Shown here: piece after piece, positions 22,262 to 29,472 of the stretch
How positions within the stretch are numbered: position 1 is the stretch's first letter
How the letters are laid out: the number at the start of each line of letters is the position of its first letter
Assembly (NCBI GenBank): GCA_026390315.1
Contig: JAPLGE010000066.1
Location: 1-33,300, forward strand
DNA length: 33,300 bases
From: Candidatus Bipolaricaulota bacterium
Lineage (GTDB): Bacteria > Bipolaricaulota > Bipolaricaulia > UBA7950 > UBA9294
Direction of reading: 5' to 3'
Notes under the pieces: generated by a model
Seen by the model: the letters and a program-made list of their open reading frames with translations, nothing else
The model's database searches: none
Told to the model about the DNA's origin: nothing
Translations under genes and position numbers: made by a program

Positions 22262-23647
22262 ATGAGACCGGGAGCTGAGAGGATGTCAGAGAAGCAACCG
22301 GCTGAGGGAGCCTCTTCTGAGGGCGGGTCGAGGGATTGCTGGCGTGAAGTCCTGGCGGCGATCGACGACCGCATTCTTCGCGCCTGTCTTCCCAAAGACC
22401 CTCAGTCGATCACGCAGAGCGGTGACGAGCTGGTGATCGCGGTCGACAGCGAGTTCAAGAAGGAGTACTGCCTTCGCAAGCAGGCGAAGCTCGAGGAGAT
22501 CGTCGCCCGCGTGATGGGCCCCCGCCGGCTCGTGATTGGCGAGCCGCCACTCATCGAGAAAGCCCGCGAAGTGCGGCCGCGCGTGGAGACGAGCGGCCGG
22601 ATTGGCGTTCTCGGGGTCGGGGACGGCGGCGTGAACGCGATCGACCGGATGCGCGAGGAGCACCTGCAGGGCGTGAGGCTCGTGGCCGTCGACACGGACA
22701 AACAGGTGCTGGGGATGTCCCGCGCTCCGGAGTTGCTCCAGCTTGGCGCCGACATCACCGGGGGACGGGGGACCGGCGGCGACGAAACGAAGGGGCGACA
22801 GGCCGCTCAGGAATCGCGATGGGAGATCGCCTCTCTTCTCAAGGGGATGGACCTTGTCTTCGTGACGGCCGGCCTGGGCGGCGGGACGGGCACGGGGGCC
22901 GCCCCCGTCGTGGCGGAGATCGCAAGGGAGAACGGGGCGCTGACGATCGGCGTCGTCACCAGGCCGTTCACGTTTGAGGGGACCGTTCGGAGGGCCCGCG
23001 CCGAAGCGGGTCTCGCCAAGCTTCGCGAGGCGGCGGACGTGCTGATCGTGATCTCGAACGACCGCCTGTTGGAAACGGCGGCCAAGGGGCTGCCGCTGAC
23101 CAAGGCCTTCGAGCTGGCGGACGGGATCCTGCATCAAGGGGTCCGGGGGATCTCGGATCTGATTACGGTGCGCGGCCTCGTGAACCTCGACTTCTCCGAC
23201 ATCCGAAACATCCTGTCCGGCGCCGGCGAAGCGATGATGGGAATGGGGGAGGCTCGCGGCGAGCAGCGAGGGCCCAACGCCGCAAAGCTCGCCAGCGCGA
23301 ACCCTCTCTTGGAGGGCGGGTCGATCCGAGGCGCGCGGAAGCTGATCATGAACATCACCGGCGGGGAGGACCTCACCCTGAGCGAGGTGACGGCGTCTGC
23401 CGACCTGATTCGCCGCGTCGCGGCGACGGAATGCGATTTGGTGTTCGGCGCGGTGGTGAAAGAAGGGTTCAAGGACGGGGTGAGGATCACCGTCATCGCT
23501 GCGGACTTCGAGGAGTCGAGCGAGGAAGAGTCGAAGAAGAAGCAGCTTCCACGGCGTGAGCGGGTCAAGTTGACGAAGGACGTGGATGTCCCCGCGTTCT
23601 TGCGGAGGGGTCGCGAGACCCAGGGCGAGGAGAAAGGGGGAACCTAG
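22262..23647 (+). CDS. ftsZ: FtsZ/tubulin-family cell division GTPase with N-terminal DnaA-domain-I/DnaX-C-like domain
   Basis: GVLGVGDGGVNAIDRM (T1), GRGTGGDETKGRQAA (T3), GLGGGTGTGAAPVVAEIA (T4 tubulin signature), NLDFSDIRNIL (T7), C-terminal DVPAFLRRGR peptide. N-terminal ~95 aa precede the FtsZ fold. Alternative start ATG 22283. Confidence 0.93.
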   Translation: MRPGAERMSEKQPAEGASSEGGSRDCWREVLAAIDDRILRACLPKDPQSITQSGDELVIAVDSEFKKEYCLRKQAKLEEIVARVMGPRRLVIGEPPLIEKAREVRPRVETSGRIGVLGVGDGGVNAIDRMREEHLQGVRLVAVDTDKQVLGMSRAPELLQLGADITGGRGTGGDETKGRQAAQESRWEIASLLKGMDLVFVTAGLGGGTGTGAAPVVAEIARENGALTIGVVTRPFTFEGTVRRARAEAGLAKLREAADVLIVISNDRLLETAAKGLPLTKAFELADGILHQGVRGISDLITVRGLVNLDFSDIRNILSGAGEAMMGMGEARGEQRGPNAAKLASANPLLEGGSIRGARKLIMNITGGEDLTLSEVTASADLIRRVAATECDLVFGAVVKEGFKDGVRITVIAADFEESSEEESKKKQLPRRERVKLTKDVDVPAFLRRGRETQGEEKGGT

Positions 23648-26857: not shown

Positions 26858-29308
26858 CTAGGGGACCACAGTAATCGCGCGGGTGGTCCGGGACAGGGCG
26901 CCTTCCTCGTCGATGACGATGAGGACGATGGTGTAGGTCTCAGGCACCTGATAAACGTGCGATTCGACGCCTTCGCCCGCGCAGGCTCCCACCGGGCCCG
27001 GGCAGGTTGTCCCGTCGCCGAAGTCCCAGGCGACATGCACGATGTGCCCGGTAGGGCTTGGGTCGTAGGAGCGGTCGGCAACCGTCACGGCCTCGCCGAC
27101 GCGCGGTGAGGCGGTGACGAGGTCGAAGGCCGCCACGGGAGGGGCGTTCCCCACCGTGACCCTCAGCGTGAGGGTTCCCTCACTGCCGTCGTCGTCCCGC
27201 ACGATCAAGGTGACGTCGTAGGTCCCGTCGTCGCCGAAGCGATGCGCTGGCCGCTCCACGGTCGCGGCCGTCCCGTCGCCGAAACGCCACCGCCAAGCGA
27301 CGATCGTCCCGTCTGGGTCAAAGGCCGCCGGCGTGAGCACCACCTCGTCGGCGTCGCTCGGCGACGAAGGCGACCAAGCGAAGGCCGCGGTGGGAGCCCG
27401 ATTGGCGACCTGAATCGTGACTGGCTCCGACAGCGCGGTCGCCCCGTCGTTGTCCGTCACCCGCACGCGCGCTCGGTAGGTTCCATCGTCGGGAAACCGG
27501 TAGGTGAAGACGGGGGTGGTCGTGCTCTCGGCATAGCTCCCGGTGCCCGCGACGTCCCATTCGTAGCGGACGATCCGGCCACGCGGGCTCGGATCCCTCG
27601 ATTCCGTTGCCTCGAGCGTCACCGTCTCCTCGGTCGACGCCTGCGCCAGGTCGAGCTTTCCGTTGGCGCGCAGGATCGCGAGCGGCGGTAGGTTCTGGAC
27701 GGTGATCGTCGCCGACGCCCGGCCTTCCGCGCCGTATCCGTCCTTGACCGTGAGGACGACCGAGCACGTGCCCTCTTCCGCGTAGGAGTGACTCGCCGAG
27801 CTCTGCGGGGACGTGGTCCCGTCGCCGAAGCTCCACAGCCACGAGGCGATCGACCCCTCGGGGTCTTGGGAGCGGTCGGTGAACCTGACCTCCTCGAGCT
27901 CCCAGGGGAAGAGGTTCGAGACCTGAAACGCCGTCACGGGGCGCCGGTTGACGTACAGGGCAAGCGAGAAAGGCGGCGAGACGGCGCCCTGATCGTCGAT
28001 GGCGCGCAGGGAGACGACCCGGCGCCCACCGTCGTCGAAGACGTGAGTGGCCCCGGTCTGCGCCGTCGAGTGATCGATCTCACCATCCGCGTCGAAGTCC
28101 CACTCGTAGCGGACAATCGCGCCGTCCGGGTCGGAGGACAGGCTCGCGTCGAAGAAGGCCTCGACCTGCTCGCTCGGAGTCTGCGGAGACACGTCGAATC
28201 GCGCCACGGGCGGCTGCGTTTCGAGGCGGAGAAGCTGAGCCTGCGACCCCACCTCTCCCGCTCGCGCGGTCACGAGAAGCGTCACGGTGTAGGTTCCGGC
28301 GCGGGCGTAGAGGTGAGTTGCCTTTCTCCCTTCTCCGAGCGAGCCGTCGCCGAAATCCCAAGTCCAGGCGACGATCTCGTCGTCCGGGTCGTAGGACTCG
28401 TCCTGGAACTCGAGGGGTTCGAGGTTCCGCAAGACGGAGCCTCGAGAAGCCGAACGGGCGCTGAAGTCCACGAGGGGCGGCAGATCGGCGACGACGCGCA
28501 CCGAACGGGAAAGAGTGGCGGAGCCTCCCTGGTCGTCCACGACGGCGAGCGAGACGGAGTACGTGCCGGGCTCCGCATAGCGGTGTTCCACGACTCGGCC
28601 TGCGGCCGTCGTGGCGTCGCCGAAGCCCCAGGAAAACGAGCCGATCGCGCCGTTTGGATCGACCGACGCGCCGGCGTCGAACAGGACGGCCTCGCCCGGA
28701 TGCGCCGGATCAGGCGAAAAGGAGAACTCCGCTAGGGGAGCCACGTTGAAGACGGAGTTGGGCTTTCCGGGCGAACCGCACACCACGTCTGATGGAGCGG
28801 CCGGACGGTGAGTCGCCCAGTTCGTGCGGCGGTCCGGGGCGCTTGGGTCGATTCGTTCCATGGTGGCGCAAGGAGGGACGCCCCACTCGCTCGTCCCCGC
28901 CGGCCAACTTCCTCCCTCCTGGTTCGCCGAGTCGACCACCCGCCCTTCCGAGTCGACGAGCCACAGGGTCTCCCCGGCGTCGCTCAACGCTCCGTGGTAC
29001 ACGAGATCGGGGCGGGCGCTCCCGGGAAGAGCTCGATCCCCGCGCCCAAGGATGGTGAACCCGAACGGCGGAATCGTCCCCGAAAGGAGGACGTCCGGAC
29101 TTCCGTCGGACGAGACGAGACGCCACCCCTCGAGGGAGGTCTCGCGATCCATGGTGTTCGCAAGCTCGATCCATTCGTCGGTCCGGTCGGCGGGCGTCCC
29201 GCCCCAGGCGACCTCGTTGATGACCACGCGACGCTCCTGGGCCAGGCCGCCCAGGGAGACGACTAGACTAGCCAAGATGAGCACGGCAACCGGTGACCCT
29301 CTGCGCAC
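26858..29308 (-). CDS. Exported protein: lamin-tail domain + about seven PKD domains
   Basis: GTG start (29308) after gaaggagg; signal peptide VRRGSPVAVLILASLVVSLGGLA; VVINEVAWGGTPADRTDEWIELAN (lamin tail); repeated (W/S)xFGDG...YxxxGTYxVxLxVxDxxG PKD motifs. Confidence 0.9.
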   Translation of the reverse strand: MRRGSPVAVLILASLVVSLGGLAQERRVVINEVAWGGTPADRTDEWIELANTMDRETSLEGWRLVSSDGSPDVLLSGTIPPFGFTILGRGDRALPGSARPDLVYHGALSDAGETLWLVDSEGRVVDSANQEGGSWPAGTSEWGVPPCATMERIDPSAPDRRTNWATHRPAAPSDVVCGSPGKPNSVFNVAPLAEFSFSPDPAHPGEAVLFDAGASVDPNGAIGSFSWGFGDATTAAGRVVEHRYAEPGTYSVSLAVVDDQGGSATLSRSVRVVADLPPLVDFSARSASRGSVLRNLEPLEFQDESYDPDDEIVAWTWDFGDGSLGEGRKATHLYARAGTYTVTLLVTARAGEVGSQAQLLRLETQPPVARFDVSPQTPSEQVEAFFDASLSSDPDGAIVRYEWDFDADGEIDHSTAQTGATHVFDDGGRRVVSLRAIDDQGAVSPPFSLALYVNRRPVTAFQVSNLFPWELEEVRFTDRSQDPEGSIASWLWSFGDGTTSPQSSASHSYAEEGTCSVVLTVKDGYGAEGRASATITVQNLPPLAILRANGKLDLAQASTEETVTLEATESRDPSPRGRIVRYEWDVAGTGSYAESTTTPVFTYRFPDDGTYRARVRVTDNDGATALSEPVTIQVANRAPTAAFAWSPSSPSDADEVVLTPAAFDPDGTIVAWRWRFGDGTAATVERPAHRFGDDGTYDVTLIVRDDDGSEGTLTLRVTVGNAPPVAAFDLVTASPRVGEAVTVADRSYDPSPTGHIVHVAWDFGDGTTCPGPVGACAGEGVESHVYQVPETYTIVLIVIDEEGALSRTTRAITVVP

Positions 29309-29472
29309 GTTCTCCTCCTTCCCGTTGCTCGGCTCAAAGGACCCAAGCGAGGCCCTTTGCCTTCGGAGTCTCTCCGAGCATAGCACATCCCGCGTGTTCG
29401 CCCAATCCGGCGCGGCGGACGGCGGCTCCGCATACCGAACGGGAGAGAAGTCGTGTAGGGTGGGAAAGCGCG

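Follow-up and report, generated by a model that had tools for sequence, protein, structure and literature searches.

The window, meaning the whole 33,300-nt stretch of Candidatus Bipolaricaulota DNA analysed here, contains an open reading frame at positions 22262–23647 of the forward strand. It encodes 461 aa, in agreement with the quoted translation, and comprises an FtsZ protein preceded by an additional N-terminal domain. The second ATG, at 22283, is the likely start (CDS 22283–23647, 454 aa), as judged from a candidate Shine-Dalgarno sequence, GGGAG, read directly 8 nt upstream of it (22270–22274), and from the many orthologues starting at the same methionine. The choice between the two ATGs leaves the N-terminal domain intact; residues are numbered below from ATG 22262, and all features of the gene are given on the forward strand.

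The protein starts with a disordered, unconserved tail (residues 8–21 of 461, 22283–22324; pLDDT <50 at residues 1–21, mean entropy 2.8 bits). It is followed by a predicted KH-like domain of the DnaA_N/DnaX_C/DciA type (residues 22–95, 22325–22546), delineated with Pfam, profiles, AlphaFold2, Foldseek and conserved columns, then by a flexible linker joining the two folds (residues 96–111, 22547–22594; pLDDT <50), and by the FtsZ GTPase and C-terminal domains (residues 112–416, 22595–23509; PF00091, 2.4e-45; PF12327, 3.5e-25). Pfam places the GTPase domain at residues 114–272 and FtsZ_C at 322–416, and the ftsZ model TIGR00065 matches residues 111–434 with 360.9 bits against a cut-off of 295.2. 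The original prediction that approximately 95 residues precede the FtsZ fold as a domain thus holds, the compact part of the extension being residues 22–95 and the TIGR00065 match beginning at residue 111.

The sequence and the orthologue alignment confirm the FtsZ motifs that had been noted: the tubulin signature GGGTGTG (22877–22897), the T7 loop NLDFSDIR (23183–23206) with its catalytic N-x-D-x-x-D (N308, D310 and D313 invariant), and PAFLRR within the C-terminal peptide DVDVPAFLRR, which is of the FtsA/SepF-docking type (23579–23608; mean entropy 0.65 bits). The key residues of GGGTGTG, of the T7 loop and of C-terminal DVPAFLRR are invariant across 38 orthologues; judging by these retained residues, the fused protein is a true FtsZ and catalytically intact.

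The host genome encodes one other FtsZ, as the original prediction had considered, on a separate contig (C172; 53% identity over residues 111–455) and without the N-terminal extension. Its gene lies directly 3' of ftsQ and ftsA, and hence it is the ordinary FtsZ of the dcw cluster, whereas the fused gene sits outside that cluster. The fused gene is therefore a second copy, a paralogue, and the ordinary FtsZ is retained beside ftsA.

On the 5' side the fused gene is adjoined by an RNase H-like gene, dtd and rpmF, and on the 3' side by genes for a PAS histidine kinase and a response regulator. This order is common to many genomes of family f1, whereas the fused gene of family f4 has other neighbours, and no gene order is common to f1 and f4. 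The neighbourhood was rejected as a clue to a partner of the protein, since replication genes are absent nearby and the order differs between f1 and f4. Nine f1 loci (L087:5500-5835, reverse strand, and eight others) have a further small ORF, membrane-protein-like and of ~111 aa, between rpmF and the fused gene; it is absent from the window. Elsewhere in the window, positions 26861–29386 of the reverse strand encode a protein of 842 aa, probably surface-exposed, in which a Lamin Tail Domain precedes approximately seven PKD domains.

Identity of the N-terminal domain

In the Pfam scan of the fused protein, the tubulin/FtsZ domains were accompanied only by a weak match to DnaX_C (PF20964; 17.1 bits, below the cut-off of 26.2). 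When the 38 orthologues were scanned, the leading families were DnaA_N (n = 12), DnaX_C (n = 11), the STICHEL DnaA_N-like domain (n = 6) and DciA (n = 3), all four from replication or DnaX-like proteins, with the best E-values of 0.00016 for DnaX_C and 0.0037 for DnaA_N. As single sequences stay below the Pfam cut-offs, the homology rests on profiles and fold. In the profile-profile comparison, the domain matched the DnaX C-terminal domains of the same class (94.8%, E 5e-8) and DnaA domain I of the same class (86%, E 5e-6); the scores, 42.7 and 35.2, respectively, were never reached with shuffled columns (200 shuffles per comparison; highest scores 20.0 and 19.8).

AlphaFold2 predicts a helix-helix-strand-strand-helix-helix-strand fold for the domain (mean pLDDT 86, pTM 0.72). 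Residues 22–95 are predicted to fold, and the tail and the linker fall below pLDDT 50. The two top Foldseek matches in the PDB are B. subtilis DnaA domain I (4TPS; TM 0.68 and 0.60, probability 1.00 and 0.99). V. cholerae DciA (8A3V), the M. genitalium and E. coli DnaA N-domains and the E. coli tau C-terminal domain follow lower, among other small alpha/beta folds. The best Foldseek E-value was 0.017, none reaching 0.001, as is usual for 79 residues, and hence the fold and the profile evidence should be read together.

We also considered that a small alpha/beta domain might resemble the replication domains by chance, without being related to them. Such a resemblance would be consistent with the sub-threshold Pfam score of the single sequence and the Foldseek E-values, with the profile search of PDB sequences, where no meaningful match to the domain was found, and with the pairwise comparison to E. 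coli DnaA domain I alone, which did not score above shuffled copies. But both profile scores lie far from their shuffle maxima, four related families head the Pfam list, and DnaA domain I heads the PDB fold list, so that we regard a chance likeness as very improbable. The sequence profiles and the model support the assignment of residues 22–95 to the DnaA_N/DnaX_C KH-like domain superfamily, and the DnaA-domain-I/DnaX-C-terminal-like identity originally proposed is upheld by the orthologue Pfam scans, the shuffle-controlled profile-profile comparison, AlphaFold2 and Foldseek. As to the source family, the profiles favour DnaX_C, and the fold search favours DnaA.

Three other identities were rejected: the fused protein is neither a DnaA initiator, as the AAA+ and DnaA-box-binding domains are absent from the Pfam scan, nor a DnaX clamp loader, as the AAA+ clamp-loader domains are absent from it, and the domain is not a classical nucleic-acid-binding KH domain, as its sequence, read directly, has no GxxG loop.

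Distribution and origin of the fusion

The profile of the KH-like domain is positive in 68 of the 100 Bipolaricaulota genomes (E 1e-25 to 1e-38). All these genomes belong to families f1, f2 and f4 (68/75), the fusion being found in none of the 25 genomes from the other six families, f3 and f5–f9; thus, the domain is fixed in related genomes, which had been proposed as a check. Almost all matches (67 of 68) are in frames of FtsZ length, the exception (G056) lying at a contig edge. The seven f1, f2 and f4 genomes lacking the fusion are MAGs of 58–91% completeness; in one of them (G004) a contig ends within a fragment of FtsZ. The N-terminal extension is a real conserved domain and not noise.

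In the tree of FtsZ cores the fused copies form one clade (100/100), splitting into f4 versus f2 and f1; their canonical counterparts in these genomes group separately (82/93). As the fused clade is single and the canonical group is separate, the tree indicates that the fusion arose once, in the second copy of a duplicated ftsZ, and was then inherited vertically. The stem branch of the fused clade is 0.94, and the fused copy evolves faster. The latter, together with the location of the gene away from the dcw cluster, in which the canonical ftsZ comes after ftsA, would agree with a regulator rather than a ring builder; a replication protein would then recruit this divergent FtsZ to delay the assembly of canonical FtsZ during replication. 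However, the residues of the GTPase, of the T7 loop and of the C-terminal peptide are invariant, as expected for an assembling FtsZ, and we consider such a regulator improbable.

When 84,980 species genomes were searched for the alpha3 motif, written as a degenerate pattern, there were no carriers clearly outside the group, two mislabelled records being allowed for; the pattern is narrow, and absence elsewhere is not implied. Almost all fusion-bearing records are titled Candidatus Bipolaricaulota, Candidatus Acetothermia or uncultured bacterium. Two GenBank MAGs among the carriers, titled 'Neomarinimicrobiota' (L089) and 'Atribacteria' (L099), are probably mislabelled f1 genomes. In family f6 (L134, L137), the sole FtsZ found has an acidic N-terminal extension that opens with a shared peptide of the type DPLDGVM-x-DFYKS; its sequence bears no relation to that of the KH-like domain.

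The conserved surface and the replication proteins of the host

Across the 38 orthologues the domain has 10 invariant columns. In five of six close pairs dN is less than one fourth of dS; the sixth pair, almost identical and with few changes, has a dN of zero. This low dN relative to dS points to purifying selection on the domain. The conservation is strongest in two segments, LRACLP (residues 39–44, 22376–22393), which covers the end of helix alpha2 and a loop and is invariant or almost so, and DSEFKKEYCLRK (residues 62–73, 22445–22480) on helix alpha3. Their mean entropy is 0.54 bits, compared to 1.81 in the rest of the domain, and none of 73 circular shifts is as low; this contrast is descriptive, as the patch was chosen with the DnaA literature and the invariant columns already known.

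In E. coli DnaA domain I, alpha2/alpha3 is a common partner surface, where Glu21 and Phe46 bind DnaB, and Glu21, Trp25, Asn44, Phe46 and Trp50 bind DiaA (PMC5448010). In the joint alignment F65 corresponds to Phe46 and Y69 to Trp50, and C42 replaces Glu21 (counting from the aligned Trp). By analogy, the patch formed by the end of alpha2 and by alpha3 is suggestive of a docking surface for a replication partner, although its conservation may be partly structural, and helicase binding by DnaA domain I is not universal across species (PMC5448010).

Two alternatives would assign the domain a role without such a partner. If it dimerised via alpha1, as E. coli DnaA domain I does, it would cross-link FtsZ filaments as a built-in ZapA-like bundler. 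Indeed, W27, aligned with the dimer-surface Trp6 of E. coli (PMC5448010), is invariant in the 38 orthologues. But other positions of the alpha1 surface vary (entropy ~2 bits at E29 and V30), conservation peaks on the opposite, alpha2/alpha3 face, and the tryptophan is kept in Bipolaricaulota DnaX_C and DnaA_N as well, so that it may be a core residue; self-association thus seems rather unlikely. Alternatively, the domain could bind ssDNA or RNA and tether FtsZ to the nucleoid, in a nucleoid-occlusion-like or chromosome-anchoring role. DciA, which has the same fold, binds both ssDNA and dsDNA (PMC9865707), the E. coli DnaA N-terminus weakly binds ssDNA (PMC5448010), and the basic residues K66, K67, R72 and K73 of alpha3 are conserved. 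Yet the mean net charge of the domain is about zero (0.2), the GxxG loop is missing, as noted above, and the conserved patch also includes F65, Y69, C42, L43 and P44; we consider nucleic-acid binding unlikely.

Docking to a replication protein, the reading that we prefer, should be seen against the replication proteins of the host itself. The original prediction suggested that the host DnaA might lack domain I; this is not the case, as domain I is found (6e-12). The host DnaX has its C-terminal domain (4.8e-9), DnaB is encoded, and DciA is above the cut-off, on the dnaA contig. As all four are retained, the domain on FtsZ is an addition to them, and an explanation of the fusion by the loss of DnaA domain I or by replacement of DciA was rejected, both being present.

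Over the phylum, DnaA_N was found in 69 of the 100 genomes, all of them from f1, f2, f4 or f6; the 19 genomes from f3, f5, f7, f8 and f9 gave no match. A recognisable DnaA domain I is therefore missing in five of the nine families; in f5, f7 and f8, DnaA starts just ahead of domain III, the frames (G037/L156, G052/L157, G059/L161) starting ~50–70 residues before Walker A. The fusion is confined to families with DnaA domain I, a pattern that would be compatible with a shared partner; as each trait seemingly changed once, the co-occurrence amounts to one coincidence and not to a test. Two side observations concern the same proteins. The DnaX C-terminal domain of f4 (L080–L083), a family that also has the fusion, carries YHYESL in place of FHKESLEK of other families. 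One genome (G005:C21:4232-7271) has two DnaA matches with identical scores 1.7 kb apart, either an assembly repeat or a recent tandem copy.

The usual division-site regulator is MinC. The search for MinC_C was positive in 6 of 14 control genomes but in no genome among the 100 of Bipolaricaulota, and MinC is missing also from the families without the fusion. A phylum where no MinC was found is a place to seek other modes of division control.

Possible role and relation to known systems

How bacteria time the Z-ring relative to chromosome replication has long been an open question; to our knowledge, the known links between division and replication use separate adaptor proteins. In the model we propose, a duplicated FtsZ would once have acquired a KH-like docking domain of the superfamily of DnaA domain I, the DnaX tau C-terminus and DciA. 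The FtsZ part, with the residues of its GTPase and C-terminal peptide intact, probably enters the Z-ring, either alone or mixed with canonical FtsZ. Via its alpha2/alpha3 face, the flexibly tethered N-terminal domain (linker of ~16 residues) probably docks onto a replication protein, the first candidates being DnaB, DciA or a polymerase III subunit, and the assembly or the position of the Z-ring would then respond to the replication machinery.

That the paralogue docks a replication protein in this way and couples Z-ring assembly to replication is a tentative reading, to which we give slightly less than an even chance. It is based on the fold and the homology, the fixation (68/75 vs 0/25), the single origin and the purifying selection, as well as on the retained FtsZ residues, the alpha2/alpha3 patch, the presence of DnaB, DciA, DnaA domain I and DnaX_C in the host, and the missing MinC. 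Counted against it are the absence of replication-gene neighbours, the non-universal binding of helicase by DnaA domain I, the possibly structural nature of the conservation, the post hoc choice of the patch, and the lack of MinC in families without the fusion. A coupling by direct fusion, where the second FtsZ itself contacts the replisome or the initiation complex without an adaptor, is a possibility that we hold with somewhat more reserve. The domain may thus physically link cell division to chromosome replication. If true, a single molecule, an FtsZ paralogue present throughout the clade and equipped with a replication-type docking domain, would link the two processes, and the link would be testable by single point changes and pairwise binding.

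The original prediction knew of no FtsZ with this architecture, and in the open-access literature searched on FtsZ paralogues and fusions we likewise found none described in a title or abstract. Nor was any paper found there that combines FtsZ and Bipolaricaulota, and FtsZ co-occurs with Acetothermia only in a soil metatranscriptome study. In its excerpted text, a survey of the FtsZ-like family reports other added domains only, such as the extra N-terminal PK domain of four planctomycete FtsZ-like proteins (PMC2875224). The dual FtsZ systems (archaeal FtsZ1/FtsZ2; FtsZl1/FtsZl2) likewise have two FtsZ-type copies per cell; a replication-type domain is not reported for them in the excerpts of PMC2875224 or in the abstract of PMC12583498.

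Compared to DnaA domain I (PF11638), its best PDB fold match, the fused domain has the same order of helices and strands and the same phenylalanine plus aromatic residue on alpha3, but it resides on FtsZ instead of an AAA+ initiator, and alpha2 differs, with C42 where E. coli has E21. The DnaX tau C-terminal domain (PF20964) is the best profile match and shares the alpha3 F-x-K motif in DnaX of the same phylum; however, it is C-terminal in DnaX, whereas the domain is N-terminal in FtsZ, and the fused protein has no clamp-loader domains. DciA/DUF721 (PF05258) has a KH-like fold, with the weak Pfam match in 3 of 38 orthologues and the Foldseek match 8A3V, but the fused domain is without the DnaB-docking extension of DciA, and the host has its own DciA beside dnaA. 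Finally, the GTPase fold, the T7 loop and the C-terminal peptide are common to the fused protein and canonical bacterial FtsZ (TIGR00065), to which the paralogue, encoded outside the dcw cluster, adds a 74-residue N-terminal KH-like domain and a linker.
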